Below, piece by piece: positions 41,792-64,000 of a stretch of 64,000 nt of DNA (the stretch's first letter is position 1; each line of letters begins with the position of its first letter). The translations under genes were made by a program, and so were the position numbers. The notes under the pieces were generated by a model. That model made no database searches, was not told the origin of the DNA, and saw nothing but the letters and a program-made list of their open reading frames with translations. This DNA comes from Cytophagales bacterium (GTDB taxonomy: Bacteria > Bacteroidota > Bacteroidia > Cytophagales > Cyclobacteriaceae). The stretch covers positions 62,001 to 126,000 of the forward strand of contig JAFLBR010000009.1 of NCBI GenBank assembly GCA_017303795.1. Reading direction: 5' to 3'.

Positions 41792-44455
41792 ATGAAAGAA
41801 GTTCCCCCCAAACTCCCCCTCCGCTTCTTCCGGTGGTTCTGCCACCCGAAGTTGCGCGATAGCATTGAAGGGGATTTGATGGAATTGTATGAGGAGAGAA
41901 GAGCAAAAAGTGGAAAGGTAAAAGCTGACGCTTTATTTTTTAAAGATGTGCTGCTTCTCTTTAGACCCGGTATTATCAGGCCAGCAGAAGGATACCAACA
42001 ATTAAACAACTACGGTATGTTGAAAAACTATTTGAAGATTAGCTGGAGAAGTCTCCTGAAACAAAAAATGTATTCGTTCATCAAGATTGGTGGCTTTGCC
42101 ATTGGTGTTGCTGCCTGTTTGCTCATTGCCTTGTTCATTAAAGATGAATTGTCGTATGACAAACATTACGCCAATCACAAGCAGTTGTACCGAGTTCTGG
42201 CTGTGATCACCGAGAATGGTGACATTAAAAAAGGTGTAGCCTTTCCGGCACCGATGGCTCTGGCTGTAAAAGAAGATTTTCCTGAAGTTGTAAATACGGG
42301 TCGGTATAATAATAGTGAACTGTTTGGTGCGGGTGCAAGTGAAGTGCGTGCGGCTGATGCCGAAGACAATGCCTACGATGAAGGTTTTGTCTATTTCGAT
42401 CAATCGTTGATTGACATGCTGCAATTGAAATTCATTTATGGCAATCCGCAAAAAGCATTAAGCCAGCCGGGTGCAATTGTTATTACAAAAAGAAAGGCCG
42501 ATAAGTATTTTCCCAATGAAGATCCGGTAGGCAAGGCTTTGGTAGTAAACAACAAAGCCGACAAACCTTATACAGTTGGCGGAGTGATTGAAGATTTTAA
42601 GTCGACCTCGCACCTGCAATTTGATTTTTTAATTGGTATGGAAGGTCTGGAGTTTTGGAACGGTGAACAAAAAACCTGGGACGCCAGTAACTATGCAACC
42701 TATATTCAGGTAGCGGAAGGCACTGATGCAAAATCTTTAGAAGAAAAACTCTCAAACGGCATCATTGAAAAATATTATATCCCAATGATGACAAAAAGTG
42801 GCCGGTCTTTAGATGATGTTAAAAAATTCTTTACTGAAACGCAGGCACATCTGGAACTGCAACCTATTAACGAGATTCATTTATTTTCGGAAGGTGTTGA
42901 CGACAAACTAAATTATGGGGACATCCGCATTGTTTGGCTTTTTGGTGGTATAGCCTTGTTTATTCTGTTAATAGCCGCTATCAACTTTATCAATCTCTCT
43001 ACCGCACGATCGGCTAACCGCGCAAAAGAGGTTGGCTTGCGAAAAGTAGTAGGTTCGCTGCGTGGTAATATCATTAACCAGTTCCTCAGCGAATCGGTTA
43101 TGTTCAGTGCAATCTCTTTTGTGTTGGGGTTGGCTATTGCATCGATTATGTTGCAATACTTCAACTCGATTTCAGGAAAATCAATTTCAATACCTTGGAT
43201 GGAATGGTGGTTCGTTCCTTCTCTTTTGGGATTATCGGTAGTGGTAGGTGTTATCGCTGGAATTTATCCGTCATTTTACTTGTCGGCATTCAAACCCATT
43301 CAGGTGTTGAAAGGTGCGCTAACACAAGGATCAAAAAGTTCACCACTCCGAAGCTCGTTGGTAATCTTTCAATTCACCATTAGTATCATTCTGCTCATTG
43401 GCACAATGGTTATCCAAAAGCAAATGAATTTTATCCTAAACAAAAAAATTGGCTTTGAAAAAGATCAAGTCTTATTACTTCAGGGCACAGGAACATTGGG
43501 CACGCAGGTGGTTGCTTTCGCGGATGAGTTGCGCGCTACTTCGCATGTAGTGGAAGTTTCTACCGGAGATTATTTGCCCGTGCGCGGTTCTAAACGAAAC
43601 GGAAATAGCTTTTGGAATGAAGGTCGCGAAAATATTGACCCAAACGTAACAAGTCAGTTTTGGCGCGTTGATCCATACTATGTAAACACACTCGGTCTTA
43701 AAATTGTAGAAGGCCGCGACTTCAACCGCGATCTTGCTTCAGACTCCAGCGCCATCATCATCAATCAAAAAATGGCAAAAGAACTTGGCGGTAACATGCT
43801 GGGTAAACGCATTACCAACTATGGCGGCTTGTGGACGGTGATTGGCATTGTAGAAGATTTCCATTACGAATCACTTCGCGAAGACATTCGTCCAATTGCA
43901 ATGGTATTGGGCACAGAGGCTTCTGTGCTTGCTGTTAAACTGAAAGCCGGCGATATGTCTGAAAGTATTCAATCTATTACCACTGTGTGGGATAAGTTTG
44001 CTCCGCATCAACCTATTCGGTATTCATTTTTAGATGATCGGTATGCGGCCATGTATAACGATGTGCAACGCATGGGTAAGATCTTCACCAGCTTTTCCAT
44101 ATTGGCCATTGTAGTAGCGTGCTTAGGATTATTTGCACTCTCTGCTTTTATGGTGGAACAACGAAGCAAAGAAATCAGCGTACGATTAGTATTAGGCGCA
44201 TCGGTGAACAGTGTGTTTCAATTGCTCACATGGGATTTTCTACGATTGGTTTTGATTTCCATTGTAATTGCTGCGCCCATCAGTTGGTACATGATGTCGC
44301 GCTGGCTTGAAGACTATGCTTACCGGACAGATATAGGCTGGGATGTTTTTGTGGTGTCGGGCATTACCTCTGTTCTGATTGCACTTATCACCATAAGTTT
44401 TCAATCGATAAAAGCTGCGGTGATGAATCCGGTGAAAGGGTTGAGAAGTGAATAG
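41792..44455 (+). CDS. Orphan MacB/FtsX-type permease P1 with N-terminal prefix domain
   Basis: The 887-residue inner-membrane protein has three parts. Residues 1-75 are a polar prefix ('PPKLPLRFFRWFCHPKLRDS', 'IEGDLMELYEE', 'FFKDVLLLFRPGI'). From Met76 ('MLKNYLKISWRSLLKQKMYS') comes a MacB/FtsX permease with two periplasmic domains and two FtsX-type membrane units; the motifs 'KEVGLRKVVGS' and 'KEISVRLVLGAS' mark the cytoplasmic coupling helices. It ends 'NPVKGLRSE'. Such permeases normally need an ABC ATPase to move lipids, peptides or drugs, or to send a mechanical signal, but none is encoded nearby. The stop codon begins repeat R2. First permease of group A. Confidence 0.92.
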   Translation: MKEVPPKLPLRFFRWFCHPKLRDSIEGDLMELYEERRAKSGKVKADALFFKDVLLLFRPGIIRPAEGYQQLNNYGMLKNYLKISWRSLLKQKMYSFIKIGGFAIGVAACLLIALFIKDELSYDKHYANHKQLYRVLAVITENGDIKKGVAFPAPMALAVKEDFPEVVNTGRYNNSELFGAGASEVRAADAEDNAYDEGFVYFDQSLIDMLQLKFIYGNPQKALSQPGAIVITKRKADKYFPNEDPVGKALVVNNKADKPYTVGGVIEDFKSTSHLQFDFLIGMEGLEFWNGEQKTWDASNYATYIQVAEGTDAKSLEEKLSNGIIEKYYIPMMTKSGRSLDDVKKFFTETQAHLELQPINEIHLFSEGVDDKLNYGDIRIVWLFGGIALFILLIAAINFINLSTARSANRAKEVGLRKVVGSLRGNIINQFLSESVMFSAISFVLGLAIASIMLQYFNSISGKSISIPWMEWWFVPSLLGLSVVVGVIAGIYPSFYLSAFKPIQVLKGALTQGSKSSPLRSSLVIFQFTISIILLIGTMVIQKQMNFILNKKIGFEKDQVLLLQGTGTLGTQVVAFADELRATSHVVEVSTGDYLPVRGSKRNGNSFWNEGRENIDPNVTSQFWRVDPYYVNTLGLKIVEGRDFNRDLASDSSAIIINQKMAKELGGNMLGKRITNYGGLWTVIGIVEDFHYESLREDIRPIAMVLGTEASVLAVKLKAGDMSESIQSITTVWDKFAPHQPIRYSFLDDRYAAMYNDVQRMGKIFTSFSILAIVVACLGLFALSAFMVEQRSKEISVRLVLGASVNSVFQLLTWDFLRLVLISIVIAAPISWYMMSRWLEDYAYRTDIGWDVFVVSGITSVLIALITISFQSIKAAVMNPVKGLRSE

Positions 44456-44494
44456 TTTCCGGTTACTAGTCACCGGTAACCAGCAACTGGTAAC
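44455..44494. repeat. Palindromic repeat R2, starting on the P1 stop codon
   Basis: 40 bp, GTTTCCGGTTACTAGTCACC then GGTAACCAGCAACTGGTAAC; its first G is the last base of the P1 stop TAG. The arms pair to form an imperfect hairpin. R3 and R5 have the same length and the same position. Confidence 0.75.
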
Positions 44495-44512
44495 TATCAG
44501 TAAAATCAAAAA

Positions 44513-47122
44513 ATGAAAAAGGCCATGTCCCCACCTCAACTCCCCCTCCGCTTCTTTCGCTGGTTCTGCCACCCGAAGTTGCGCGATAGTATTGAAGGGG
44601 ATTTGATGGAGTTGTATAAGGAACGATTAATTAAAAACGGAAAGTTAAAGGCCGATGCACACTTTATTAAAGATGTGTTGTTGCTATTTAGGCCAGGCAT
44701 TATCAGGCCAACAGAAGGTTATCAAAATTTAAACTCTTACGGTATGTATAAAAATTATTTCATTACAGCATGGCGAAATGTAATTCGCAAGAAATCATCT
44801 GCTGCCATTAATGTATTTGGGCTTACGCTCGGTATCTCCTGCGCCCTTATCATTTTCGCATTGGTTAACTACCATCTAAGTTTTGATAATTTTCATACGG
44901 ATGCGGATAGAATCTACCGGTTTGTAACAGAAGAACATCGCGATGAGGTGGAATATGATGCCAGTGTACCTCCACCCTTCGGTAAGTTTTTTCGCGAAGA
45001 CTATACTTTCAGCGATCAGGTAGCCCGGCTTTATACGGGCGACAATGAATTAATCACTATTGAACGGATTGGTGAGAAGAATAAATTCAATGAAACCATT
45101 GCGTTTGCAGAACCCGATTTTTTTAAAATCTTCAATTTTCCGTTAAGCACCGGAAACCCTGAAACTATTCTGGTTGAACCCAACACGGCCATCATAACTA
45201 AAAAGATGGCTGCAAAATACTTTGGTGATGAGTCCGCTATTGGAAAAGTGATTCGATTAAATAGTAAAATTGATTTTACTGTTTCAGGCGTTCTGCAAGA
45301 CCTTCCTGTTAATTCCGACATCCAAACCGAAATCTATTTTTCATACAGCACCATGAAGCAGTATAATGAATGGGCAGCATCGGATGACGCCTGGGGTGGT
45401 ATTACCAGCAGTATTAAAACATACACCAAACTAAAACCCGGTGTTAACCCAACCGATGTAGAGCAAGCTGTGGATGAATATGTGAAAAGGTTTCGCCCAA
45501 AGAGTAAAAACGTACATCACTATAAACTTCAACCTTTAAACGATGTACATTTTAATGCACGTTATGAAGGCGTGATGAGTAAAACCACCATTTGGATTCT
45601 TTCATTAGTGGGTGTACTTCTGGTACTAACGGCCAGTTTAAATTTTATCAACTTAACTACTGCACAAGCTATTAATCGCTCCAAAGAAGTAGGTGTGCGC
45701 AAAAGTTTAGGCGGTGCCCGCGGCCAACTGTTCTGGCAGTTTACTATCGAAACCGGATTGGTGGTTCTGGTAGCTACCGTATTAGCACTTGCCTTTTCGT
45801 ACGCTATTCTTCCACAGCTAAATAGTTTTCTCAACACCAACATCAGCATCAATTTATTTACCGATACACGACTGCTGTTATTTGTTCTTGCTTTGATAGT
45901 AGTGGTTACCGGTTTGTCGGGTGCCTATCCGGGAATTGTCCTATCGGGTTTCAAACCGGTGCTGGCATTAAAAGGAAAATTAAGTGGTAAACAAACCGGG
46001 AGTTTCAATATCAGGCGCGCATTAATCGTTACCCAATTTTCAATCTCACAAATTCTTTTGCTGGGTTTGATTGTGATGTTTTTCCAAATGCGCTACTTCA
46101 GCAAAACCGACATGGGTTTCGACACAGATGCCATCATTATGATGCCCGTTGGATCGAATGACGAAAAATTAAAAACGGTTAAGTCTCAATTGTTGCAAGT
46201 TCCGGGTGTTGAAAACGTATCCCTATGTTTTGGTGCACCCGCATCCGATAATCATTGGACTACTTCAATAAAGTTTGATGATCGTGCCGAGACCGAGCCT
46301 TTCTCTATCAGTCATAAAGGTGCAGATGAAGATTACCTGTCAACTTTCTCGTTAGAAATTATTGCTGGCCGAAATCTTACTCCATCAGATACGGTACGCG
46401 AATTTCTGGTGAACGAAAATCTTTTATCGCAGCTGAATCTCGCTTCGCCCGAAGAAATTCTTGGGAAGAATATAACCGTTAATGGTTCGTGGAAAGGACC
46501 AGTTGTGGGTGTAGTTAAAGATTTTCATGAACAATCTTTCCATGCCGACATAAAGCCTGTGTTTCTTACCACCTCGGGAAACACCTACAATTCAATTGCG
46601 GTTAAAATTAACATGCGCAATGCAAATGAAACACTCACCTCAATAGAAAAAGTGTGGAGTGGTATGTATCCTGATTTAATTTACAAGTATGATTTTCTGG
46701 ATGATCAGATCGCCAGCTTTTATCAGACCGAGCAACAGATGGTTTCTATTGTTTACATTTTTGCGAGCATTGCTTTAATCATTGGAGCGCTGGGCTTATA
46801 TGGTTTGGTTTCGTTTATGGCCGTTCAAAAAACAAAAGAGATTGGTATCAGAAAAGTTTTAGGTGGCGATGTTGTTCAAATACTCTGGATTTTCGGTAAA
46901 GAGTTTACAGCATTGGTTGTTGTTGCTTTTTTAATTGCCGCGCCTGTCGGCTGGTTAGTGATGACGGAGTGGCTATCGAATTATGCTTTCAAGGTTGACA
47001 TTAGTCTTTGGATGTTTGCGCTGGAGTTATTCATTATTGCTTTAGTAGTACTGGTAACTGTTGGTTATCGTTCGCTTAAGGCGGTGGTGGCTAATCCGGT
47101 TGAGAGTTTGAGAAGTGAATAG
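44513..47122 (+). CDS. Orphan MacB/FtsX-type permease P2 with N-terminal prefix domain
   Basis: The 869-residue protein has a prefix (residues 1-77, 'LPLRFFRWFCHPKLRDSIEG') that at DNA level is 76/80 identical to that of P1. The junction is 'YGMYKNYFITAWRNVIRKK', and the permease part differs strongly from P1 (for example 'AAINVFGLTLGISCALIIFALV'). Coupling motifs are 'KEVGVRKSLGG' and 'KEIGIRKVLGG'; the end is 'NPVESLRSE'. It lies 57 bp after P1 with repeat R2 in the gap, and belongs to the same transcription unit. Confidence 0.92.
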   Translation: MKKAMSPPQLPLRFFRWFCHPKLRDSIEGDLMELYKERLIKNGKLKADAHFIKDVLLLFRPGIIRPTEGYQNLNSYGMYKNYFITAWRNVIRKKSSAAINVFGLTLGISCALIIFALVNYHLSFDNFHTDADRIYRFVTEEHRDEVEYDASVPPPFGKFFREDYTFSDQVARLYTGDNELITIERIGEKNKFNETIAFAEPDFFKIFNFPLSTGNPETILVEPNTAIITKKMAAKYFGDESAIGKVIRLNSKIDFTVSGVLQDLPVNSDIQTEIYFSYSTMKQYNEWAASDDAWGGITSSIKTYTKLKPGVNPTDVEQAVDEYVKRFRPKSKNVHHYKLQPLNDVHFNARYEGVMSKTTIWILSLVGVLLVLTASLNFINLTTAQAINRSKEVGVRKSLGGARGQLFWQFTIETGLVVLVATVLALAFSYAILPQLNSFLNTNISINLFTDTRLLLFVLALIVVVTGLSGAYPGIVLSGFKPVLALKGKLSGKQTGSFNIRRALIVTQFSISQILLLGLIVMFFQMRYFSKTDMGFDTDAIIMMPVGSNDEKLKTVKSQLLQVPGVENVSLCFGAPASDNHWTTSIKFDDRAETEPFSISHKGADEDYLSTFSLEIIAGRNLTPSDTVREFLVNENLLSQLNLASPEEILGKNITVNGSWKGPVVGVVKDFHEQSFHADIKPVFLTTSGNTYNSIAVKINMRNANETLTSIEKVWSGMYPDLIYKYDFLDDQIASFYQTEQQMVSIVYIFASIALIIGALGLYGLVSFMAVQKTKEIGIRKVLGGDVVQILWIFGKEFTALVVVAFLIAAPVGWLVMTEWLSNYAFKVDISLWMFALELFIIALVVLVTVGYRSLKAVVANPVESLRSE

Positions 47123-47161
47123 TTACCGGTTTCCAGTCACCGGTAACTGGAAACCGGTAAC
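47122..47161. repeat. Palindromic repeat R3, starting on the P2 stop codon
   Basis: 40 bp, GTTACCGGTTTCCAGTCACC then GGTAACTGGAAACCGGTAAC. The outer 16 bases of each arm are fully complementary (GTTACCGGTTTCCAGT with ACTGGAAACCGGTAAC), so it can form a stable stem. The first G is the last base of the P2 stop. Confidence 0.8.
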
Positions 47162-47177: not shown

Positions 47178-49829
47178 TTGAAAAATAGAAAATCATATCC
47201 ACCTAAACTTCCCCTCCGCTTCTTCCGATGGTTCTGCCATCCGAAGTTGCGCGATAGCATTGAAGGTGATTTGATGGAGTTGCATGAAGAGCGATTGATT
47301 AAAAGTGGAAAGCTGAAAGCAGATGCACACTTTATTAAAGATGTACTGTTGTTATTCAGACCGGGCATCATTAAGCCAACAGAAGGAACAGAAAGATTAA
47401 ACACGTACGGTATGTATAAAAGTTATTTTAAAATTGGCTGGCGCAATTTGCTGAAAAGCAAAGTCCATGCATTCATAAACATCAGCGGGCTGGCATTGGG
47501 TATCGCCAGTGTTTTTCTGATGGCTACGTATGTTCGGTATGAACTGGGTTACGACCGGTATTATGATCAACCTGAAAATCTTTACCGCATTACGTGGGAA
47601 AATGAGAGTCCGCAAACGCGCACCCCGCACCCCATGGCGCAAGCACTGGTGGCCGATTTTCCCGAAGTGGAAAGCGCGGTTACTTTATCGCCCCTCTGGG
47701 CAGCAGGTTTAACGCGTGCTATCTATTCTATGGCCAACCCGGAAAATGATGTTCGCTTTGACGAGAAAAACTTATTAGCCGTTGACACAACTTTTTTTGA
47801 TGTGTTTGGTTTTCCGGTGGTTCGTGGCAATGCCCGTAAAGCGTTGGAGAATGTAAATGGAATTTTAATTTCAGAATCAACAGCTAAAAAATATTTTAAC
47901 GATGATGATCCTATTGGTAAACATTTGATTGTGTATCCGGATAGTGCGCTGCTGGAAGTGATGGCCGTGTTTAAAGATGTTCCGCAACAATCGCATTTTC
48001 ATTTCGACATGTTGATTTCGTATGTGCGCGAAAAGTCGTTCGATCCGGATGACGAATATTATACGTGGGCCGACTTTGGTCACTTCAATTATGTACGATT
48101 GAAGCCCGGTACTGACCCAAAAGCACTTGAAGCCAAGTTGATGCCAGCGATGCGCAAGTACATCGATTTACCAGATGAATATTACAGAAACCTCATCGCC
48201 AACAACATGGGCTTTCGTGTGCAGCCCGTAACAGACATCCACTTGAAATCGCACGTACGTTGGGAGCTTGAAACGAACGGCAACATCGAATACGTCTATA
48301 TCATGGGGGCAGCGGCATTACTCACCCTGCTCATCGCCTGCATAAACTTTATGAATTTAATGACGGCCAAGTCAGTAGAACGGGCCAAAGAAATCGGGAT
48401 TCGGAAAACGATGGGCGCCATGCGTCAACAATTATCGGTACAGTTTATAGGCGAATCCATTTTAGTAACCGGTATCGCACTTGTTTTTGCAGTATTAGCG
48501 CTTGAAGTAAGTTTACCATTCTATAACTCCCTCACCGGCCAATCGCTTTCATTAAATTATTGGGAAGCATTGCCGGTTTTATTGGTAGTAGCACTCGTTA
48601 TCGGAATTGGCTCGGGAATTTATCCGGCTGTTTTTCTTTCGGCCATTCAGCCGCAAAGTATTTTGAAAGGAAAATTCCAAACCTCGCATCGCGGTAATGG
48701 TTTGCGCAATGGGTTGATTGTTTTTCAGTTTGCCATTTCAATGATACTAATTTCCGGAGCGGTTATTATCTACAACCAACTCAATTTCATTCAAAACAAA
48801 AACCTGGGCTTCGGCAAAGAAGAAGTACTTGTTATTCCGATGAAGGATGAGCACATGGACAGACGCATGGAGGCCATCAAAAATGAATTGAGCAGGATTG
48901 AGGATGTCGTTTCCGTTTCGGCAAGTTCTAATATGCCGGGCGGACAATTCAATCAAAATTCTATCTCGTTAGTAGAAGCACCAGAAAACGATATCACAAC
49001 TTCCGAAGTTTTTGTGGATTATGATTTTCAGAAAGTGATGAATCTGGAATTAGTTGAAGGCCGATATTTTACAATGGATGATAAACCCAGTTCAACTGAA
49101 GTGAAGTTTGTTATCAATGAAACCGCAGCAAAGCAACTTAGCAGTTCATCGGTGGTAGGAAAAGAAATTCATTGGCATGCGTATGAGAACGACAAACCTA
49201 TAGTAGGACGTGTGATCGGTGTGGTGAAGGATTTTCATTTTCAATCCTTGCACGATCCGCTCAGACCTATATTGATGATTCCTTACCCAGCTTACAATCA
49301 TCTTATTGTAAAACTAAACACCGGGAACTTTGAAAACACGCTGGCTCAAATTCAAAACGTGTATCGCGAGTTCGAGAATTCATTTCAATTTGAATTTGCT
49401 TTTCTGGACGACCGGCTCGCTAAACAATATGAATCGGAAGCGCGTACATCCATTATCTTTAGTGCGTTTGCATTCATTGCCATTGTAATTGCGTGTTTCG
49501 GATTGTTTGGTATGGCCATGCTTACGTTTAGTCAGCGTATGAAAGAAGTGAGCATCCGCAAAGTACTGGGTGCTTCCTTTGGTGGATTAATAATTCTATT
49601 ACTCCGCGACTTCACTAAACTCATCGCCTTTGCCGTACTACTTGCCACACCCCTGGCGTGGTGGCTGATGGATCGTTGGCTCAAGAATTTTATTTATCAG
49701 GTGGGTATCCATCCGGTTGTGTTTATTGTTTCAGGATTAACTCTTATCGTTATTGCCTGGATTACGCTGGGATACTTTACCTTAAAAACCACACGTGTTA
49801 ACCCCGCACAGACGTTGAAGAATGAATAG
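47178..49829 (+). CDS. Orphan MacB/FtsX-type permease P3 with N-terminal prefix domain (TTG start)
   Basis: The 883-residue protein has no ATG near the prefix. I chose the TTG at 47178, which gives 'MKNRKSYPPKLPLRFFRWFC' just like the starts of P1, P2 and P8. A GTG at 47115 would put 21 residues coded by repeat R3 at the N-terminus. Prefix residues 1-78 are of group A type. The junction is 'YGMYKSYFKIGWRNLLKSK'. Coupling motifs are 'KEIGIRKTMGA' and 'KEVSIRKVLGA', and the end 'RVNPAQTLKNE' departs from the LRSE ending of most others. It closes group A; a VOC-GNAT gene follows. Confidence 0.9.
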   Translation: MKNRKSYPPKLPLRFFRWFCHPKLRDSIEGDLMELHEERLIKSGKLKADAHFIKDVLLLFRPGIIKPTEGTERLNTYGMYKSYFKIGWRNLLKSKVHAFINISGLALGIASVFLMATYVRYELGYDRYYDQPENLYRITWENESPQTRTPHPMAQALVADFPEVESAVTLSPLWAAGLTRAIYSMANPENDVRFDEKNLLAVDTTFFDVFGFPVVRGNARKALENVNGILISESTAKKYFNDDDPIGKHLIVYPDSALLEVMAVFKDVPQQSHFHFDMLISYVREKSFDPDDEYYTWADFGHFNYVRLKPGTDPKALEAKLMPAMRKYIDLPDEYYRNLIANNMGFRVQPVTDIHLKSHVRWELETNGNIEYVYIMGAAALLTLLIACINFMNLMTAKSVERAKEIGIRKTMGAMRQQLSVQFIGESILVTGIALVFAVLALEVSLPFYNSLTGQSLSLNYWEALPVLLVVALVIGIGSGIYPAVFLSAIQPQSILKGKFQTSHRGNGLRNGLIVFQFAISMILISGAVIIYNQLNFIQNKNLGFGKEEVLVIPMKDEHMDRRMEAIKNELSRIEDVVSVSASSNMPGGQFNQNSISLVEAPENDITTSEVFVDYDFQKVMNLELVEGRYFTMDDKPSSTEVKFVINETAAKQLSSSSVVGKEIHWHAYENDKPIVGRVIGVVKDFHFQSLHDPLRPILMIPYPAYNHLIVKLNTGNFENTLAQIQNVYREFENSFQFEFAFLDDRLAKQYESEARTSIIFSAFAFIAIVIACFGLFGMAMLTFSQRMKEVSIRKVLGASFGGLIILLLRDFTKLIAFAVLLATPLAWWLMDRWLKNFIYQVGIHPVVFIVSGLTLIVIAWITLGYFTLKTTRVNPAQTLKNE

Positions 49830-50802: not shown

Positions 50803-50829
50803 TTGGCACGATTATTCCTACATTTAGGA
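50803..50829 (+). promoter_or_regulatory. Shared promoter/operator motif of PadR2
   Basis: TTGGCAC (50803-50809), ATTATT, then the perfect palindrome TCCTA-CATT-TAGGA (50816-50829). It ends 13 bp before the ATG of PadR2, where a -7 region and an autorepressor site would fall. Confidence 0.55.
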
Positions 50830-50842: not shown

Positions 50843-51181
50843 ATGAAGAAATACCAATTGGGTGAATTCGAGGAAATTGTAATGCTCACCATCGCCATCT
50901 TATATAAAGAAGCCTATGGCGTGGCTATTAAAAATGAAATTGAATCGCGCCTGAAACGCAATGTGAGCATGGGGGCTATGCATACCGCATTGGTTCGGTT
51001 GGAAGATAAAGGCTATATCCGCTCGCACGATGGCGAACCAACGGAAGAACGTATGGGCCGACCCAAAAAATATTTTCAGGTAACAGCGCTCGGCAAAAGA
51101 GCAATGGAATATTCGCGAGAAACGCGCAATGCACTTTGGGGCGCCATTCCAGATGTATCGCCCAATGTGAAATTCAGTTAG
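50843..51181 (+). CDS. PadR family transcriptional regulator, PadR2
   Basis: The 112-residue protein 'MKKYQLGEFEEIVMLTIAILYKEAYGVAIKNEIESRLKRNVSMG' closely resembles PadR1 and PadR4 (same 'QLGEFEE' start and 'EERMGRPKKYFQVTALGKRAMEY' wing). It opens group B (P4, P5). It lacks the repeat-coded tail of PadR1, so it shows the basic length of the family here. Its promoter has the shared palindrome. Confidence 0.93.
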   Translation: MKKYQLGEFEEIVMLTIAILYKEAYGVAIKNEIESRLKRNVSMGAMHTALVRLEDKGYIRSHDGEPTEERMGRPKKYFQVTALGKRAMEYSRETRNALWGAIPDVSPNVKFS

Positions 51182-51217: not shown

Positions 51218-51243
51218 GTCACCGGTAACTGGAAACCGGTAAC
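51218..51243. repeat. Half copy of the palindromic repeat (R4) before P4
   Basis: GTCACCGGTAACTGGAAACC then GGTAAC, equal to the right half of R3. It lies between PadR2 and P4, 6 bp before the P4 ATG. Confidence 0.65.
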
Positions 51244-53937: not shown

Positions 53938-53976
53938 TTACCGGTTTCCGGATTCCATTTACTGGAAACGGGTAAC
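53937..53976. repeat. Palindromic repeat R5, starting on the P4 stop codon
   Basis: 40 bp, GTTACCGGTTTCCGGATTCC then ATTTACTGGAAACGGGTAAC. Same length and same position on the stop codon as R2 and R3; the outer arms pair with a few mismatches. Confidence 0.75.
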
Positions 53977-53990
53977 GATGATAAACCAAA

Positions 53991-56597: not shown

Positions 56598-56692
56598 AAA
56601 GTAGGCAGCAAGCAGGCGGCTGGAACCTGCTTGCAGCATCCTCTATTACAGAATTTTTTCTCCGTTTACTTAACAAAAGTGAAACTAATGCA

Positions 56693-56710
56693 TTACATTC
56701 ACGTTTGTAA
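56693..56710 (+). promoter_or_regulatory. Inverted repeat TTACA-N8-TGTAA before PadR3
   Basis: TTACA (56693-56697) and TGTAA (56706-56710) lie 13 bp before the PadR3 ATG. It differs from the palindrome shared by PadR1, 2 and 4, and PadR3 is also the most divergent regulator. Confidence 0.4.
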
Positions 56711-56723
56711 AGTAAATATCGTT

Positions 56724-57050
56724 ATGACACAACATTCTCTTGGCGAGTTTGAAGAACTCGTATTGCTAATGGTAGCCGCACTGCATGATGAAGCCTATGG
56801 TGTAGTTATACTCGAAGGCCTCGAAGAAAAATTGAAAAAGAAAGTAAACATCAGCGCGGTACACGTAGCGCTAAAGCGCATTGAAGACAAAGGCTTTGTA
56901 AAGTCGCGCATGGGCGGAATTACTGAAGACCGCGGTGGCAGACGCAAAAAGTTTTACGTCATTACTGCTTTGGGAAAAAGAATGTTGGATGCACAATATG
57001 ATTTACGTAATAGCATCTACAAGCAGATTCCCAAGATATCGTTTGGCTGA
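56724..57050 (+). CDS. PadR family transcriptional regulator, PadR3 (divergent)
   Basis: The 108-residue protein 'MTQHSLGEFEELVLLMVAALHDEAYGVVILEGLEEKLKKKVNISAVHVALKRIEDKGFVKSRMGG' is a PadR, but it differs clearly from PadR1, 2 and 4. The wing reads 'TEDRGGRRKKFYVITALGKRML'. It opens group C (P6, P7), whose prefixes are also the most divergent. I used the ATG at 56724; the frame is open upstream but without PadR similarity. Confidence 0.92.
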   Translation: MTQHSLGEFEELVLLMVAALHDEAYGVVILEGLEEKLKKKVNISAVHVALKRIEDKGFVKSRMGGITEDRGGRRKKFYVITALGKRMLDAQYDLRNSIYKQIPKISFG

Positions 57051-57122: not shown

Positions 57123-59741
57123 ATGAAAAATAATCCTCCGAAACGTCCTTTACAGTTTCTCCGCTGGTTTTGCCGCGAAGATTATCTCGATGAGATTGAA
57201 GGAGATTTAACAGAGGTTTTTATAAAACAAGCAGAAACACATCCGCGCAAAGCAAAATGGAAATTTGCCTGGAGTGTGATTAAATATTTCAGGCCGGAGT
57301 TTCTGAAGTCGTTTAAGAATCATCAACCTAATGCATACGGTATGTATAAAAGTTATTTTAAAATCGGGTGGAGGAATTTGGTCAGGAATAACGGCTACTC
57401 CGTAATCAATATCGGAGGGCTTGCAATAGGCATGGCAGTGGCTATGTTTATTGGACTGTGGGTAAACGATGAAATTAGCTTTAATAAAAACCATACAAAT
57501 TATGCTGATATAGCTCAAGTGCGGTATTCAAATTTCGACCAAAGTACCCATACAACAGGTGGATCAGATGGCGTGCCTTTACCAATGGGAGCAGTGTTGA
57601 AAGACACCTATAAGCAGAATTTCAAACATGTTTTAATGGCTTGGTGGCTTGGCGACTATTCACTTACGGCAGGCGAAAATCAGCTAACCGCTAAAGGAGA
57701 ATTTATCGAGCCAGAAGTAATCGACATGCTATCATTAAAAATGCTTCGTGGGTCAAACCACGCTCTTGCGGATCCGCATTCAATCATTCTTTCTCAAACA
57801 CTGGCAGAAACAATTTTTGGTGCCACAGACCCAATCAATAAGACTTTAAGAATCGATAATAACTTCGATGTAAAAGTGACTGGGGTTTATGAGGACTTAC
57901 CACGAAACAGCAAGTTTGGCGAAGTTCACTTCTTTTCTCCTTGGGATTTGTGGGTTTCCGCAAACAACTGGATTAAAGATTCGGCTAATGATTGGAATAA
58001 TAGTTCATTCAATATCTACATACAAAAGCACCCACACGTCTCGTATGAGGGGATAGATAACGCAATCAAAGATATTTACTATAAACCTGTGGCGCGAGCG
58101 GATATAAACCACAAAAAAGTAGCCCTGCTGTACCCCATGAGTCAATGGCACTTGTATTCTGAATTTAAAGACGGAAGGCCTGCTGGTGGACGAATTACGT
58201 TTGTTTGGTTGTTTGGTACCGTTGGTTTTTTTGTGTTGTTCCTGGCGTGTATCAACTTTATGAATCTAAGTACAGCCCGATCCGAAAAACGGGCAAAGGA
58301 AGTTGGCATTCGCAAAGCCATAGGATCTGCAAAAGAAGCTTTGATTTTTCAATTCTTAATCGAATCCTTTTTGGTTGTTCTGTTGGCATTTGTGCTAACG
58401 CTAATACTGGTTACCATTTCATTTCCGTGGTTCAACGAATTGGCCGGTAAGAAACTATCAATACCGTTTACTAATCCTATATTTTGGTTAGCGTCCTTGA
58501 CCTTTGTCACCCTGACCGGTTTTTTAGCTGGACTTTATCCTTCATTTTATTTATCAACTTTTCAACCGGTTAAAGTATTGAAAGGCGCCATTCGTGTTGG
58601 TCGCTTCGCCTCACTTCCCCGCAAAGTTTTGGTTGTAGTTCAATTTACGGTCTCCGTTGTTTTAATCATCGGAACAATCCTGGTTTACCAACAAATACAA
58701 TATGCAAGCAACCGTCCAATTGGCTATAACCGTGAAGGTTTACTAACGCTGCCAATAAACGATCCAGGCTACAAGGGGAAGCCCGATGTAATCAAAAATG
58801 AATTGCTGAACACGGGCGTGGTAGAAGACATGGCATTGTCATCCAACACCATGACTAAATCGAACCGTCATTTGAGTGGTTTTAACTGGCCTGGAAAAGA
58901 TCCGGAAAAGGAGGCAAGCTTCAACTGTGTTGATGTCTCATACGGCTTTGGAAAAATGGTGGGTTGGCAAATTATAGCAGGAAGAGATTTTTCAGAAGCC
59001 CTTTCAACCGATTCTACGACTATCATTATTAATGAAACCGCAGCAACGTATCTAAATCTTAAAAATCCTATTGGTGAGTTTATTACAACAAGGGGCGGTC
59101 AGTCTTTGCAAATTGTGGGTGTGGTAAAAGATATGGTGATGGACTCTCCTTATGAGCCTGTAAAAAGAGGCATCTATTTTCTAGATAAAAATTACGTGGC
59201 AGCAAGACAAATAATTATTAAAATAAACCCAACCGTAAGTGCTGCTGAAGCGTTGCCGGAAATAGAAGCAATTTTCAAGAAAATAGTCCCCTCGGCTTCT
59301 TTCGATTATAAGTTTGTAGATGATCTATATGCAAACAAGTTTAGCCAGGAACAACGCATTGGCAAGTTGGCAACTTTCTTTGCTATCCTGGCCATATTTA
59401 TTTCATGCCTGGGGCTTATCGGTTTAGCCTCCTTCATAGCCGAACAGCGTACCAAAGAAATTGGCGTGCGCAAAATCTTGGGTGCTACCGTCACCAATCT
59501 CTGGCAAATGTTATGCAAAGACTTCGTGACTTTAATCATGATCTCTTGTTTGATAGCAACACCAATTGCCTACTCCTTGATGAATGGATGGTTGCAAAAA
59601 TATACTTATCGTACAGAAATTTCGTGGTGGGTATTTGTTGCAACAGCGCTCGGTACGTTTTGTATTACACTGTTAACCATAAGCTACCAAGCTGTAAAAG
59701 CAGCCAGGATGAATCCCGTGAATAGCTTAAAATCAGAATGA
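57123..59741 (+). CDS. Orphan MacB/FtsX-type permease P6 with N-terminal prefix domain
   Basis: The 872-residue protein has a group C prefix (residues 1-73: 'PLQFLRWFCREDYLDEIEGD'), sharing an unbroken 51-bp DNA identity with P7 (57156-57206 and 59771-59821). The permease part from 'MYKSYFKIGWRNLVRNNGYSV' is closest to P5. Coupling motifs are 'KEVGIRKAIGS' and 'KEIGVRKILGAT'; the end is 'RMNPVNSLKSE'. I used the ATG at 57123, as an upstream TTG adds only two residues. The stop overlaps the P7 ATG by 4 bp. Confidence 0.92.
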   Translation: MKNNPPKRPLQFLRWFCREDYLDEIEGDLTEVFIKQAETHPRKAKWKFAWSVIKYFRPEFLKSFKNHQPNAYGMYKSYFKIGWRNLVRNNGYSVINIGGLAIGMAVAMFIGLWVNDEISFNKNHTNYADIAQVRYSNFDQSTHTTGGSDGVPLPMGAVLKDTYKQNFKHVLMAWWLGDYSLTAGENQLTAKGEFIEPEVIDMLSLKMLRGSNHALADPHSIILSQTLAETIFGATDPINKTLRIDNNFDVKVTGVYEDLPRNSKFGEVHFFSPWDLWVSANNWIKDSANDWNNSSFNIYIQKHPHVSYEGIDNAIKDIYYKPVARADINHKKVALLYPMSQWHLYSEFKDGRPAGGRITFVWLFGTVGFFVLFLACINFMNLSTARSEKRAKEVGIRKAIGSAKEALIFQFLIESFLVVLLAFVLTLILVTISFPWFNELAGKKLSIPFTNPIFWLASLTFVTLTGFLAGLYPSFYLSTFQPVKVLKGAIRVGRFASLPRKVLVVVQFTVSVVLIIGTILVYQQIQYASNRPIGYNREGLLTLPINDPGYKGKPDVIKNELLNTGVVEDMALSSNTMTKSNRHLSGFNWPGKDPEKEASFNCVDVSYGFGKMVGWQIIAGRDFSEALSTDSTTIIINETAATYLNLKNPIGEFITTRGGQSLQIVGVVKDMVMDSPYEPVKRGIYFLDKNYVAARQIIIKINPTVSAAEALPEIEAIFKKIVPSASFDYKFVDDLYANKFSQEQRIGKLATFFAILAIFISCLGLIGLASFIAEQRTKEIGVRKILGATVTNLWQMLCKDFVTLIMISCLIATPIAYSLMNGWLQKYTYRTEISWWVFVATALGTFCITLLTISYQAVKAARMNPVNSLKSE

Positions 59742-62347
59742 AAGTTCATCCTCCCAAACGCTCCCTTCAATTTCTCCGCTGGTTTTGCCGCGAAGATTAT
59801 CTCGATGAGATTGAAGGAGATCTGGTTGAACTCTTTGAAAAGAGATCAGAAACGATTTCTCTCCACAAAGCGAAATGGAGATTCTTTTGTGATGTAATCA
59901 CCTCCTTTAAACTTAGAAATCTTAAAGTATTAAAATCAACTTCTAACCTGATTATGTTTCAACATCATTTAAAAATTGGCAGTCGGCAGTTACTTAAAAA
60001 TAAAGTATACTCTGCTATCAACATTTTAGGTCTTACCATTGGTATTACCTGCTGCCTGGTCATCTTCATTTTTATAAAGTACGAATCGGGTTTCGACAAC
60101 TTTCATCCGAAGGCTAAGGAAACCTATCGCGTAGTGCAGCATACAAAGTTTCCCGATCAAACACTTTATTGGAACACCACAGCCTACCCGCTGGCCGAAG
60201 CACTTCGAAATGATTTTAGTGAGTTTGAACTAATAACACAAACTGCTGGTCCGGTTAATCGGTTTTTTAGTTTTGAGAATAACGACAACCGGTTTGAATC
60301 GAACTATGTTCTCTTTGTTGATCCTTACTACCCAAAAGTATTTAACCTCAACTGGGTTTTGGGCGATCCCAATACTGCGCTTCAGCACACCAACTCTATT
60401 ATTATTACAGAGCAGATTGCACGCAAGTGTTTTGGTGATCAGGCCAACGATGCATCTATTCTCGGTAAAACCATTATGCTTAATGGAAAAGATCCATTGC
60501 AAATAACCGGTGTTGTTAAGAATGCACCTGGCAACAGCAATCTCCGCTACGAGATTCTAGTTCCTTACGAGTTTTTCCGGCAGAACAATCCCTATCCATC
60601 GGCTAATTGGTCAGGGAATTATCAAGGTACTACGTTTGTAGTGTTGCCCGATCAACTCGCGAAGCAAGACATTGAAACTCGCGTTGCCAATTGGAAAAAG
60701 AAATATCTAAATGCTGAAGATGATCAGCGCATCTCCTACTTGTTGCAGCCGCTTGAAGAAATTCACACTGAAACCATGTATGGCAGCAGTCCGGGTGGAT
60801 ACACGATGTCTAAGCGCATTCTTCAGGCATTAGCTTTTGTGGGTATTTTTATTTTACTGATTGCCATTGCCAATTTTATAAACCTGGTAACTGCAAAATC
60901 TACCGCACGCGCTAAGGAAGTAGGCGTAAGAAAGATAATCGGTAGTACCTGGTCTAACCTTGTTCGTCAATTTATTCTGGAAAATACCTTGTTAGTTTTT
61001 ATTACAATTATCGTCTCGTTGGGCATTACGTATGGTTTACTCAACCAGTTAAATTTCTTTCTCCACACCATCCATTTACAATTAGCGTTGCAATGGAGCG
61101 ATGTGGGGCTTGTGTTGTTACTGGGGCTGATAACTATTTTGTTAGGAACTTTATATCCGGCTTTGATACTGGCTTCGTTTAAGCCGTTGCAAATCATGCG
61201 AAACAATTTATCTATTGGTACCGATTCTGGTTTTACAATTCGGAAATCGCTTACAGTATTTCAATTCAGTATGATGCAGCTTTTTATTATCGGGGCTATT
61301 ATTGTTGGCATGCAAATGCACTTTTTCAAAAACGGAGAGTTAGGATTTTCAACCGATGCCGTTATTTCGGTACGGGTTCCACAATTCGACAAATTGAATG
61401 AGTTTAAAAACACCTTGCTGCAAAACAAAGATGTAATTAAAGTATCGTTTGGTTCCGGGCCACCGATGGCCGTTAATGGTTTTGCGTTAGGAACGCTCTT
61501 TCGACTGCCTGGTCAACCCGGTGAAGAAGGCATGGAAGCCGAGATGAAAATTGGAGACTTGAATTACCTGGAATTTTATAACCTGAAATTAATAAGCGGC
61601 AAAAATTTCTCGGAGAATAAATTTGAATTTGATGAGTTTATTGTGAACGAGCGTTTACTCAAATCGTTAGGCTGGACTGCAGAAGAAGCTATTGGCAAAA
61701 GACTCGCTATTAATGAAGGTGAAGCTACCATTGTTGGCGTTGTGCGCGACTTTCATAACAATTCGCTTCAGCATGAAATAACTCCTTGTGTTTTATTGAA
61801 TTGGAATCATTTCCAAAATCTGGCGTTCGTTCATTTGGCTAACGTAAAGCCCGAGGTGTTACAATCCATTGAGCAAATGTGGAAGCAAAGCTTCACTACT
61901 TCTATCTTTCAATACGAATTTGTAGATGACTCCATCGCGAAAGAATACTTTGTAGAAACGCTATCGTTTAAAGGCTTTACGGTGTTTTCCATTATTGTTG
62001 CGTTGATTGGTTGCCTCGGTTTATTTGGATTGATGACCTTCATCACTTCCAGAAAGACTAAGGAAGTGGGCATTCGAAAAATTCTGGGCGCATCGGCAGC
62101 AGAAATCATTCTCTTTTTTTCAAAAGAGTTTATGTTACTAATCTTAATCGCATTTGTGATAGCTACTCCCGTAGCTTTTGTACTCATGCGTTTATGGCTT
62201 GAAGGGTTTACGTATAAAATAGAGCTTGCAGCCTGGATGTTTTTCAGTGGCGGTATCATTACGCTGGTTGTTGCTTTGATAACTTCTGGTTTTCAAACTG
62301 TAAAAGCTGCAGGGGCTAATCCGGTGAACAGCCTTCGCTCAGAATGA
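59738..62347 (+). CDS. Orphan MacB/FtsX-type permease P7 with N-terminal prefix domain
   Basis: The 869-residue protein has a group C prefix (residues 1-72) and the junction 'LIMFQHHLKIGSRQLLKNKVYS', which still has Met although the YGMYK words are lost. The permease ('AINILGLTIGITCCLVIFIFI') resembles P2 more than P6. Coupling motifs are 'KEVGVRKIIGS' and 'KEVGIRKILGAS'; the end is 'NPVNSLRSE'. It starts within the P6 stop (ATGA), so the two are translationally coupled. Confidence 0.92.
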   Translation: MKVHPPKRSLQFLRWFCREDYLDEIEGDLVELFEKRSETISLHKAKWRFFCDVITSFKLRNLKVLKSTSNLIMFQHHLKIGSRQLLKNKVYSAINILGLTIGITCCLVIFIFIKYESGFDNFHPKAKETYRVVQHTKFPDQTLYWNTTAYPLAEALRNDFSEFELITQTAGPVNRFFSFENNDNRFESNYVLFVDPYYPKVFNLNWVLGDPNTALQHTNSIIITEQIARKCFGDQANDASILGKTIMLNGKDPLQITGVVKNAPGNSNLRYEILVPYEFFRQNNPYPSANWSGNYQGTTFVVLPDQLAKQDIETRVANWKKKYLNAEDDQRISYLLQPLEEIHTETMYGSSPGGYTMSKRILQALAFVGIFILLIAIANFINLVTAKSTARAKEVGVRKIIGSTWSNLVRQFILENTLLVFITIIVSLGITYGLLNQLNFFLHTIHLQLALQWSDVGLVLLLGLITILLGTLYPALILASFKPLQIMRNNLSIGTDSGFTIRKSLTVFQFSMMQLFIIGAIIVGMQMHFFKNGELGFSTDAVISVRVPQFDKLNEFKNTLLQNKDVIKVSFGSGPPMAVNGFALGTLFRLPGQPGEEGMEAEMKIGDLNYLEFYNLKLISGKNFSENKFEFDEFIVNERLLKSLGWTAEEAIGKRLAINEGEATIVGVVRDFHNNSLQHEITPCVLLNWNHFQNLAFVHLANVKPEVLQSIEQMWKQSFTTSIFQYEFVDDSIAKEYFVETLSFKGFTVFSIIVALIGCLGLFGLMTFITSRKTKEVGIRKILGASAAEIILFFSKEFMLLILIAFVIATPVAFVLMRLWLEGFTYKIELAAWMFFSGGIITLVVALITSGFQTVKAAGANPVNSLRSE

Positions 62348-62383
62348 GCTTCGGCAGTTTAAGTTCGGAGTAACTCTTTGTCC

Positions 62384-62987: not shown

Positions 62988-63027
62988 AGCTCTGATTTGT
63001 TTGAGCCAAATGTACATCAAAAGTTTA

Positions 63028-63074
63028 CAAATTATCAATTATACTTGACAATTTGACTATTATAATGGCAAATT
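63028..63074. promoter_or_regulatory. Three CAAATT/AATTTG half-sites upstream of the XRE-membrane pair
   Basis: CAAATT at 63028-63033, AATTTG at 63050-63055 and CAAATT at 63069-63074, within A+T-rich DNA 41-87 bp before the ATG at 62987. They may be a site for the XRE regulator. The rest of the 250 bp up to PadR4 shows nothing else. Confidence 0.3.
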
Positions 63075-63243
63075 GATAGTGAAAAAGAGGTTTTAGGGAG
63101 CAAAAAGAATTATCATTACTACGCTTTGCTAGGAACAACTCAAGCAAAATCAATCCATACCGCTTTCAGACAAACTTGTGCGCATTCGAACACACCCTTC
63201 GAGTGACTACCCCTATTCAACTGTAAAAACAAAGATTCGAAGA

Positions 63244-63271
63244 GTGGCATAATTATTATTCCTACAATTAG
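63244..63271 (+). promoter_or_regulatory. Shared promoter/operator motif of PadR4
   Basis: GTGGCAT (63244-63250), ATTATT and CCTACAATTAG (63261-63271), in the order and spacing seen before PadR1 and PadR2. It ends 17 bp before the ATG. Confidence 0.5.
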
Positions 63272-63288
63272 AGAATAATATCCTTCAG

Positions 63289-63636
63289 ATGAAAAATTAT
63301 CAACTAGGTGAGTTTGAAGAGATCGTGCTACTCACCGTAGGCATTTTAAACAACGAAGCGTACAGCGTAGCCATTAAAGATGAAATCGAATCGCGCTTAA
63401 CGCGCACCGTAAGTATGGGTGCGTTGCATACTGCCTTGCTCCGGTTAGAAGAGAAAGGCTATCTCAAATCATTTTCAGGCGAAAGTACTGAAGACCGTGC
63501 TGGTCGGCCCAGACGATATTTTGAAATCACTGCACTCGGCAAAAAAGCCATGCTTTACGCGAAAGAAACGCGTGAGCAATTGTGGAAAGCTATACCGAAG
63601 GCGGTGCTGGAGTATCAGTTGACAATAGGCAATTAG
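63289..63636 (+). CDS. PadR family transcriptional regulator, PadR4
   Basis: The 115-residue protein 'MKNYQLGEFEEIVLLTVGILNNEAYSVAIKDEIESRLTRTVSMGALHTALLRLEEKGYLKSF' is close to PadR1 and PadR2. The wing is 'EDRAGRPRRYFEITALGKKAML'. It opens group D; the GTG of the last permease follows its stop by 4 bp. Confidence 0.93.
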   Translation: MKNYQLGEFEEIVLLTVGILNNEAYSVAIKDEIESRLTRTVSMGALHTALLRLEEKGYLKSFSGESTEDRAGRPRRYFEITALGKKAMLYAKETREQLWKAIPKAVLEYQLTIGN

Positions 63637-63640
63637 AAAA

Positions 63641-64000
63641 GTGAAATCCAAAAAACAACATCCACCCCAACTCCCCCTCCGCTTCTTCCGCTGGTATTGC
63701 AATCCGCGCTTGCAAGATTATATAGAAGGAGATTTAACGGAGGTGTATGAGAAACGATTGAAAAAATCTGGGAAGAGAATTGCTGACGTGAGATTTATAA
63801 TTGATGTACTTCTTCTGTTCAGACCGGGAATTATGAAATCAACACACAAGAGACCATACTTTAACAATTGGAGCATGTATAAAAATTATCTTTTGATTGG
63901 CTGGCGAAACCTCGTTCGCAGCAAGACTCATTCATTTTTCAATATTAGCGGGCTTGCCCTTGGTATCGCCAGTTGCTTACTGATTAGTTTATACATAGCT
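63641..64000 (+). CDS. Orphan MacB/FtsX-type permease P8, 3'-truncated by the window edge (GTG start)
   Basis: About 120 codons are visible. The GTG at 63641 gives 'MKSKKQHPPQLPLRFFRWYC' (first codon read as Met), the same layout as P1 and P3, and no in-frame ATG lies before the prefix. The prefix continues 'NPRLQDYIEGDLTEVYEKRL' and 'FIIDVLLLFRPGIMK'. The junction is 'NNWSMYKNYLLIGWRNLVRSK', followed by the first membrane helix 'ISGLALGIASCLLISLYIA' at the window end. The stop lies beyond 64000. Confidence 0.88.
   Translation, partial: MKSKKQHPPQLPLRFFRWYCNPRLQDYIEGDLTEVYEKRLKKSGKRIADVRFIIDVLLLFRPGIMKSTHKRPYFNNWSMYKNYLLIGWRNLVRSKTHSFFNISGLALGIASCLLISLYIA

Follow-up and report, generated by a model that had tools for sequence, protein, structure and literature searches.

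The PadR-led groups of permease genes described here are best read as units in which the prefix of each permease is a cognate tag for the PadR of its own group, the permease bodies are swappable, and the prefix competes with operator DNA. We put the probability of this reading at about three in four. Four such groups (A–D) were found in the window, the whole 64,000-nucleotide stretch of a Cytophagales bacterium genome that was analysed. The groups were tandem arrays, in which a PadR gene was followed by one to five prefix-bearing permeases. Judged by its profile matches, the prefix is perm_prefix_2 (NCBIfam NF038404), carried by ADOP-like permeases behind a short PadR. The features are listed below with residues at the positions discussed later; all body starts are approximate.

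41354..41384, + strand: operator-like box TTGGCACAATTATT..TACAAATAGGAA 5' of PadR1
41399..41788, + strand: PadR1, group A regulator (K31, P74; PF03551, 46.1 bits)
41804..41983, + strand: P1 prefix, perm_prefix_2 (E31, D19; NF038404 above cut-off)
42044..44455, + strand: P1 body, duplicated MacB_PCD/FtsX permease
44531..44710, + strand: P2 prefix, perm_prefix_2 (E31, D19; NF038404)
44768..47122, + strand: P2 body, sister of the group C P7 body in the body tree
47199..47378, + strand: P3 prefix, perm_prefix_2 (E31, D19; NF038404)
47436..49829, + strand: P3 body
50843..51181, + strand: PadR2, group B regulator (N31, P74; PF03551, 45.2 bits)
51268..51444, + strand: P4 prefix (D31, G19; NF038404)
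51505..53937, + strand: P4 body
54009..54185, + strand: P5 prefix (D31, N19; NF038404)
54246..56597, + strand: P5 body, grouping with the bodies of P6 (group C) and P10 (group D)
56665..56716, no strand assigned: imperfect, operator-like palindrome of 52 bp immediately 5' of PadR3 (overlapping 30-nt arms, 87% complementary)
56724..57050, + strand: PadR3, group C regulator (E31, R74; PF03551, 33.6 bits with the longer frame 56631-57047)
57135..57308, + strand: P6 prefix (K31, D19; NF038404)
57366..59741, + strand: P6 body
59750..59911, + strand: P7 prefix (K31, D19), without the usual RPxI end (NF038404 positions 1-54 of 62)
59975..62347, + strand: P7 body
63289..63636, + strand: PadR4, group D regulator (D31, P74; PF03551, 44.9 bits)
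63662..63841, + strand: P8 prefix (K31, D19; NF038404); the P8 gene extends past the window

All four PadRs scored above the PF03551 gathering cut-off of 27 (33.6–46.1 bits), and the seven window permeases tested all exceeded the NF038404 cut-off of 35 bits (47.5–61.9 bits). Beyond the window, group D continued from P8 to P9 and P10, both of which had prefixes with R31. The genome contained 27 perm_prefix_2 places above the cut-off, every one of them within 14 PadR-led groups. By hand count, about 32 MacB_PCD frames lacked a prefix.

The wide set comprised 264 PadR-led groups with 388 permeases, mostly from Bacteroidota (two records were titled as non-Bacteroidota MAGs). Its regions were hand-picked among the best matches listed, duplicate sequences were merged, and some genomes may bear two labels through overlapping records. 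Permeases shorter than 400 aa were excluded, a gap above 2500 nt ended a group, and 17 PadR matches with no downstream prefix permease in their stretch were left out. The 388 prefixes were grouped behind a PadR, and 40 others were not. By hand count, 31 of these 40 lay in runs that started no more than 2.2 kb from the end of a stretch, three were near a PadR in another layout, and six (three look-alike pairs, genomes G059 and G074) had no PadR-like ORF within their stretches of 15–16 kb. This indicated that the prefix can occur apart from PadR.

Within the window, the original prediction held that the prefix type follows the PadR of its group and not the permease type, based on hand alignments that a script reproduced. 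The best 80-bp window of the P1 and P2 prefixes had 76 matches, the best 163-bp window of P4 and P5 had 154, and P6 and P7 shared 51 bp with no mismatch. The noted collapse of P4/P5 similarity past the junction was also seen (56/60, 56/60, 41/60, 25/60 and then 21/40 matches); the P4 and P5 prefixes were 83% identical and their bodies 27%. The P5 body was indeed nearest to that of P6 (52% identity), though their prefixes shared only 30%. PadR3, singled out as the most divergent regulator, was 44% identical to PadR1, against 72% for PadR2 and 70% for PadR4, and it was accompanied by the most divergent prefixes: P6 and P7 were 31–47% identical to the others, which shared 58–92% among themselves.

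The same pattern was found across the 264 groups. Of 188 prefixes, 187 had their nearest same-genome paralogue in their own group, as did 79 of 188 bodies. For permeases with group mates, the counts were 21/21 and 5/21 in the window's own genome, 107/107 and 42/107 in the first 27 genomes, and 81/81 and 32/81 in genomes not previously used. Label shuffles in the first 27 genomes gave means of 20.3 (prefixes) and 19.9 (bodies), with maxima of 39.1 and 34.0. A weak group signal remained in the bodies of the first set (42 versus a shuffle maximum of 34) but not in those of the new set (32 versus 40). In the tree of the 27 own-genome bodies, the clades P4+P5 (p-AU 2.3e-5) and P6+P7 (p-AU 6.6e-6) were rejected, and a clade of P1–P3 was not (p-AU 0.087).

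PadR distances agreed with prefix distances in the wider sample, where disagreement had been named beforehand as refuting the pairing. The Mantel correlation between PadR and prefix was 0.68 in the own genome (p 0.0005; −0.11 for PadR and body), 0.82 in the genus (0.48 for the body) and 0.69–0.82 in the new set. The genus value was 0.77 after accounting for the body, and PadR and body kept a partial correlation of 0.24. For the 21 groups of genomes G039, G045 and G052, the values were 0.49 for the prefix and 0.25 for the body. When pairs were binned by identity, PadR identity varied with that of the prefix and scarcely with that of the body. In the first set, prefixes below 35% with bodies of 50–70% went with a PadR identity of 0.47 (95 pairs), and prefixes of 65–80% with bodies below 30% went with 0.84 (95 pairs); the new set was similar. 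Slow prefix evolution alone was ruled out by these 50–70% bodies behind prefixes below 35% (95 pairs in the first set and 137 in the new set). In 40 groups, the last members tracked PadR as well as the first (0.81 versus 0.82), so mere closeness to PadR was ruled out as the cause. In leave-genome-out partner prediction, run on 8 of 13 eligible outside genomes, the prefix identified the partner in 85 of 89 cases and two body segments in 26 and 23 (chance 13.5). Within the own genus, the prefix succeeded in 60 of 87 cases and the body in 27–32 (chance 12.5).

These likenesses might have arisen by neutral local gene conversion that makes the prefixes of a group alike, with PadR agreeing through inheritance of the operon as a unit and no functional pairing. 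Transfer of DNA is real, since synonymous codons are shared: the same-codon share in the own-genome prefixes was 0.55–0.67 within groups and 0.36–0.46 between groups. The tandem arrangement also suits conversion. In addition, four of the 11 genomes with at least six groups (G039, G088, G091 and G113) showed a correlation of PadR with the body, which in the last three exceeded that with the prefix, and the PadR–prefix correlation was not significant in G064 and G091. However, the homogenised tract stopped near the prefix end. Beyond column 84, the own-genome codon share was about the same within and between groups, whereas equal conversion of all the group DNA had been named beforehand as the pattern that would speak against pairing. 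Because the shared synonymous codons stop at the prefix/body junction, the prefixes have been homogenised as DNA while the bodies were exchanged. The tracking of PadR by last members, the poor prediction of PadR by bodies of the same operon, and an excess of opposite charges over tree-simulated independence (below) also argue against a neutral origin, which we consider improbable.

Residue covariation between PadR and prefix favours direct binding. The two leading DCA pairs, whose columns and scores were picked after the scan had been inspected, were PadR31–prefix31 (z 13.9) and PadR74–prefix19 (z 8.7). As controls, four PadR–body blocks reached tops of 0.85–1.5 against 5.17, and 12 within-genome re-pairings gave top-five means of 1.17–1.36 versus 2.81. 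When the scan was limited to the own genus (Meff 46), the two pairs ranked 41 and 393 of 6490; limited to later members, they ranked 43 and 71. At PadR31–prefix31, the charges in the 264 groups were −/+ in 97, +/− in 44, −/− in five and +/+ in none; among the 72 groups below 70% PadR identity, the counts were 18, 7, 1 and 0. Simulation on the tree gave p 0.0005 for this charge pairing, with 136 observed against maxima of 93 in 4000 prefix-side draws and 84 in 2000 PadR-side draws. On supported branches, a sign test could draw on two pairs for charge, six for D/E and one for 74–19, which is too few, and pairing of H31 with an aromatic prefix residue 31 was unsupported in its two pairs. Behind the PadR74–prefix19 coupling stand 10 changes in PadR along the tree, and its split coincides with that of an upstream DNA box, so it may reflect clade history. 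In the prefix itself, helix 2 was acidic (D24 invariant, G23 and E27 near-invariant), and of 388 sequences, 328 had R54 and 319 had P55 in the RPxI end.

Structure prediction is consistent with a complex. AlphaFold2 predicted three helices for the prefix, whose pLDDT rose from 64 alone to about 95 in an in-frame read-through chain with its PadR, an arrangement that forces the two parts into proximity. No natural PadR–prefix fusion was found among ORFs of at least 80 aa in the loci. In Foldseek, the 50 matches listed for the joint model were winged-helix regulators, mostly PadR, with PadR chains as the best matches. A search for solved relatives of the prefix gave a single weak match (E 0.49). 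The original idea that prefix and PadR form cognate pairs thus gained support from distance agreement, partner prediction, the 31–31 charge swap and a confident joint fold.

Another possibility is that the prefix coding region contains the PadR operator, and that this DNA, rather than the protein domain, co-evolves with PadR. The prefix DNA lies close 3' of PadR and is conserved at the nucleotide level among group members, and some of the coupled positions fall in the elements with which PadR reads DNA. This is nevertheless very improbable. What couples most strongly is a pair of residues of complementary charge. The prefix forms a curated protein family, present in at least 40 of 192 genomes from the order, and its predicted confidence rises with PadR in cis. 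Operator-like palindromes or boxes were found 5' of PadR genes, the region that the group-by-group scan covered. Besides the palindrome at PadR3, boxes resembling that of PadR1 lay 5' of PadR2 (50803-50829) and PadR4 (63244-63274), and the box core pattern occurred in 19 of 78 P74 groups versus none of 183 other groups.

We therefore return to pairing at the protein level. Each group would be a self-contained regulatory unit of a short PadR repressor and one to five prefixed permeases, and the three-helix prefix, at the cytoplasmic N-terminus, would bind the PadR of its own group rather than those of others. The prefix would act as an address tag and the bodies as exchangeable cargo, recombination near the junction placing new bodies behind the resident prefix. 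Within-group prefix likeness would be maintained by DNA transfer together with selection to match the local PadR. The binding surface would comprise prefix helix 2 on one side and, on the PadR side, alpha2, the first part of the recognition helix and the wing, with the 31–31 charge pair among the contacts. The coupled PadR positions were mainly in alpha2, the recognition helix and the wing; for 22 of the top 25 pairs, the PadR column fell in 22-31, 44-53 or 63-76, and the other three were columns 85 (alpha4), 9 (alpha1) and 4 (N-terminus). This surface overlaps the DNA-contact elements of PadR proteins, which were taken from the available text of PMC6457526 and PMC3506622, so competition between the prefix and operator DNA is most likely, which would make the prefix a membrane-tethered cognate antirepressor. 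The permeases would then hold or release PadR and so set transcription of their own operon, perhaps in response to envelope or membrane stress.

Direct pairing might instead form a tether or co-repressor complex that keeps PadR DNA-competent or ligand-sensing. For the HAAS–PadR dyad, the available text puts forward a change of conformation that ends in release or reconfiguration (PMC11237479), and LftR, a short PadR, is described with an intersubunit cavity as a putative ligand site. The position of the 22 coupled pairs argues against this alternative, which we regard as rather unlikely. More tentatively than DNA competition as such, we suggest that the prefix sequence may be an operon barcode on a membrane-tethered, DNA-competing antirepressor, and that up to 14 orthogonal PadR–prefix locks and keys per cell may let many FtsX-type permeases join any regulatory channel by recombination at the tag boundary. 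Keeping the tag while changing the cargo is a possible reason for the many PadR–permease operons per genome, and should the 14 pairs within a genome prove mutually insulated, they would be a ready-made orthogonal signalling set.

Among known systems, the bodies resembled ADOP (TIGR03434), with a best stretch spanning nearly the whole model in five of seven window permeases, but all seven scored 272.6–335.6 bits, under the cut-off of 622.3; PadR1 reached 37.5 bits against 101.8 for padR_acidobact (TIGR03433). LmrR, LftR and bcPadR share the short PadR fold of the window PadRs; the available accounts of LmrR and LftR describe answers to small molecules and no protein antirepressor. The Listeria PadR repressors LltR and LstR act chiefly on the operons that encode them, and that of LltR includes a DUF1700 membrane protein (PMC6624303). 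Their membrane partner differs from that of the window system, and the available text of that paper describes no pairing or specificity test. The closest parallel is the HAAS–PadR dyad (mSystems 2024, PMC11237479), in which, in the text available, a small helical domain, typically at a membrane-protein N-terminus and with fusions including FtsX/MacB-PCD, is encoded beside a standalone PadR as in the perm_prefix_2 system, and the dyad is suggested to be an alternative to two-component systems. HAAS is characterised by constant coupling to a standalone PadR, whereas the wide set here had both grouped and ungrouped prefixes (388 and 40). HAAS has a GxP kink in the third of its three helices, whereas perm_prefix_2 has RPxI and no conserved GxP. 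With HMMER filters on and E values up to 10 allowed, none of 10 prefix segments matched the HAAS model (PF22564), and the two weak places of this model in the own genome were not prefixes. In hhalign, the two families aligned with a probability of 2.7% (E 0.017 over 34 columns, with only 10 sequences on the HAAS side). The idea of such a dyad was already published, whereas neither the specificity code and body swapping nor paralogue-specific PadR–prefix pairing was found in the one open library searched. Body swapping and residue coupling were found here and specificity between paralogous pairs is supported, none of which the available text of the HAAS–PadR paper contained, and they add a candidate residue-level specificity code to a regulator–membrane pairing that, in the papers available, had been proposed from gene neighbourhoods only.

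Four groups were found on the + strand from position 41399 of the window onward, each led by a short PadR, behind which lie two or three permeases (862–904 aa).

PadR-led groups in the window
From 41399, + strand: group A, PadR1 and P1–P3
+ strand: group B, PadR2 and P4–P5
+ strand: group C, PadR3 and P6–P7
+ strand: group D, PadR4 and P8–P10; the window ends inside P8, and the remainder is in stretch L028

The permeases began with ~60 residues of NCBIfam NF038404 (perm_prefix_2), and the remainder was a duplicated MacB_PCD/FtsX permease of the ADOP type, scoring under the ADOP cut-off. The ORF between groups A and B (49886–50713) is, by eye, what we take to be joined glyoxalase-type and GNAT-type acetyltransferase domains. 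The whole genome (4.87 Mb, 24 contigs) contained 27 prefix permeases, arranged in 14 PadR-led groups; three more PadR matches, one of them under cut-off, were found elsewhere. Among its 102 MacB_PCD matches, about 32 frames (hand count) carried no prefix, one of which follows a PadR by position. Twenty-one of these measured 757–840 aa; the prefix permeases measured 865–912 aa, with one of 670. The prefixes of P7 (59750–59953) and of the L038 group did not have the usual RPGI end and carried FKLRN or FFRLRNM instead. The titles of related loci named Cyclobacteriaceae, Flammeovirgaceae, Chryseolinea, Algoriphagus and others.

The original prediction held that prefix type follows the PadR of the group, and its hand-aligned prefix match counts (P1/P2, P4/P5 and P6/P7) were reproduced identically by script. 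The body tree rejected both a P4+P5 and a P6+P7 clade; it placed P5, P6 and P10 (groups B, C and D) together and P2 with P7 (groups A and C). A P1–P3 clade was not rejected on that tree (p 0.087). In a first set of 27 genomes (96 groups, 166 permeases), the nearest same-genome paralogue was a group mate for 107/107 prefixes and 42/107 bodies, with label shuffles averaging about 20. In the enlarged set (112 genome labels, 264 groups, 388 permeases) the values were 187/188 and 79/188, the single prefix exception involving the related groups A and D, which nearly tied (0.75 vs. 0.74). Previously unused genomes gave 81/81 and 32/81 (shuffle means 24.6 and 24.1).

Mantel correlations of PadR with prefix and with body were 0.68 and −0.11 in the own genome, 0.82 and 0.48 in the genus, 0.49 and 0.25 in 21 groups of genomes G039, G045 and G052, and 0.69–0.82 and 0.24–0.37 in the new set. 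Among 11 genomes with at least six groups, p < 0.05 was reached in nine for the prefix and in four for the body. When pairs were binned by identity, PadR likeness was set by the prefix bin and barely by the body bin. The body correlation was the stronger one in genomes G088, G091 and G113, and therefore some lineages may still retain unshuffled operons.

Within the groups of the own genome, amino-acid identity was 63–79% over the prefix columns and 25–39% over most of the body, the latter being the between-group level. The share of identical residues with the same codon was 0.55–0.67 within and 0.36–0.46 between groups in the prefix; past column 84, the two shares were about equal. This prefix-only excess indicates that the prefixes are related as DNA and the bodies mostly are not, with the break point in the linker that precedes membrane helix 1 (YxMxKNYFKIxW). 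Probably bodies were repeatedly exchanged or prefixes converted, with crossover at the linker. A small palindromic repeat was observed at or just 5′ of the starts of P1–P5.

GGTTACCGGTTTCC-like palindromic repeats
41725–41780
44468–44481
47121–47155
51224–51237
53936–53977

Allowing at most one mismatch, the genome contained 22 matches vs. six with the reversed pattern. The repeat may delimit the exchanged tract on the left.

Two other PadR-led loci of the own genome resembled natural swaps. At locus L289:570–3672 (C19), a classical PadR (L289:570–902) led an ADOP-type permease whose body was 41% identical to that of P1 and 45% to that of L036, both prefix-bearing; its N-terminal ~80 residues matched neither perm_prefix_2 nor any Pfam family. 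At locus L290:929–3666 (C4), the PadR led a protein of 792 aa in which two PspC stretches and a HAAS match below threshold were found, an arrangement like published HAAS-PadR neighbourhoods. Thus, at these loci too, the N-terminal domain type goes with the PadR type and the body stays.

Forty prefix permeases in the enlarged set had no PadR upstream, 31 of them in runs whose start lay no more than 2.2 kb from the end of a stretch (hand count). One (L209) lay directly before a PadR, and in L230 and L260 more than 2.5 kb with another permease-sized ORF separated the two. No PadR-like ORF at E < 1 was found in the stretches of six others (L246, L248 and L250 of genome G059; L254, L255 and L257 of G074), so the PadR-prefix pairing is a rule with exceptions. 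These six full-prefix permeases form look-alike pairs across the two genomes.

For mean-field DCA, the 110 PadR columns were concatenated with the 59 prefix columns (388 rows, Meff 175). The ranking was led by PadR31-prefix31 at 5.17 (z 13.9), above the best intra-PadR score (4.28), followed by 74-19 (z 8.7), 44-52, 27-27, 31-28 and 45-25. Four PadR-body blocks reached at most 1.5, and 12 within-genome re-pairings gave top-5 means of 1.17–1.36 vs. 2.81 for the true pairing. The 31-31 residues were D-R in 66 groups, K-E in 41, E-K or E-R in 27 and H-Y or H-F in 16. By charge, the 264 groups comprised 97 −/+, 44 +/−, five −/− and no +/+, the others having a neutral side. In the window and L028, group A had K-E (3/3), B N-D (2/2), C E-K (2/2) and D D-K/R (3/3). 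Independence simulated on the tree reached maxima of 93 (4000 prefix-side draws) and 84 (2000 PadR-side draws), compared with 136 observed. The pair was chosen from 6490 after the scan, a choice that its signal should survive because it lies 6.4 and 5.4 standard deviations out; that of 74-19 (3.5 and 2.7) may not. Ranks of the two pairs among the 6490 were 1 and 2 outside the own genus, 41 and 393 within it alone (Meff 46), and 43 and 71 among later group members alone.

When the test genome and all PadRs at least 85% identical to it were left out of training, the couplings assigned the correct PadR to 85/89 prefixes in eight outside genomes (chance 13.5); two body segments gave 26/89 and 23/89. 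Training outside the genus gave 60/87 prefixes and 27–32 of 87 for body segments in the own genus (chance 12.5), and 14/27 prefixes in the own genome (chance 1.9). This success stems partly from homology, not contact.

PadR1 and P1 share one reading frame, separated by a single stop and one codon. A 207-residue read-through chain of PadR1 and the P1 prefix, with TAA as Q as a modelling device, was predicted by AlphaFold2 from 126 rows (17 paired likewise; 75 with prefix, by hand count). Mean pLDDT was 88.7 and pTM 0.80; ten-residue blocks scored 88–98 in PadR and 94–96 in prefix residues 141–190, and the linker was loose. The prefix alone (84 rows) gave pLDDT 64.0 and pTM 0.41. The two domains would be placed against each other, because a pTM of 0.80 is hard to reach otherwise. 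The predicted prefix has three helices, with coupled columns 17, 19, 20, 25, 27, 28 and 31 on helix 2 (columns 15–36) and 48, 51 and 52 on helix 3 or at its end. In 22 of the top 25 pairs the PadR column fell in 22–31 (α2 and just before), 44–53 (α3) or 63–76 (wing). These match the DNA-contact regions that the accessible text on short PadR proteins places at the start of α2, in α3 and in the wing (PMC3506622, PMC6457526), and we therefore infer that the prefix would compete with DNA for PadR.

A 52-bp imperfect palindrome directly adjoins PadR3 upstream. TTTG/CAAA-type dyads preceded 73/183 groups without the PadR residue P74 and 2/78 with it; a GGCA[CT][AG]ATTATT box preceded 0/183 and 19/78, respectively. 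These candidate sites would fit autoregulation through PadR-clade-specific operators, and also plain clade history. For Listeria LltR and LstR, the accessible text names their own operons as main targets (PMC6624303).

As far as our literature searches show, the cognate specificity, the body exchange, the charge-swap pair and the DNA-face proposal are new. The perm_prefix_2 domain is already named by NCBI, and the HAAS-PadR dyad has been published, the accessible text including FtsX/MacB fusions and the idea of signal transfer to PadR (PMC11237479). The PadR-prefix unit would work like that dyad, but a sequence test of HAAS membership failed for the prefix, which by profile and fold may still belong to HAAS.
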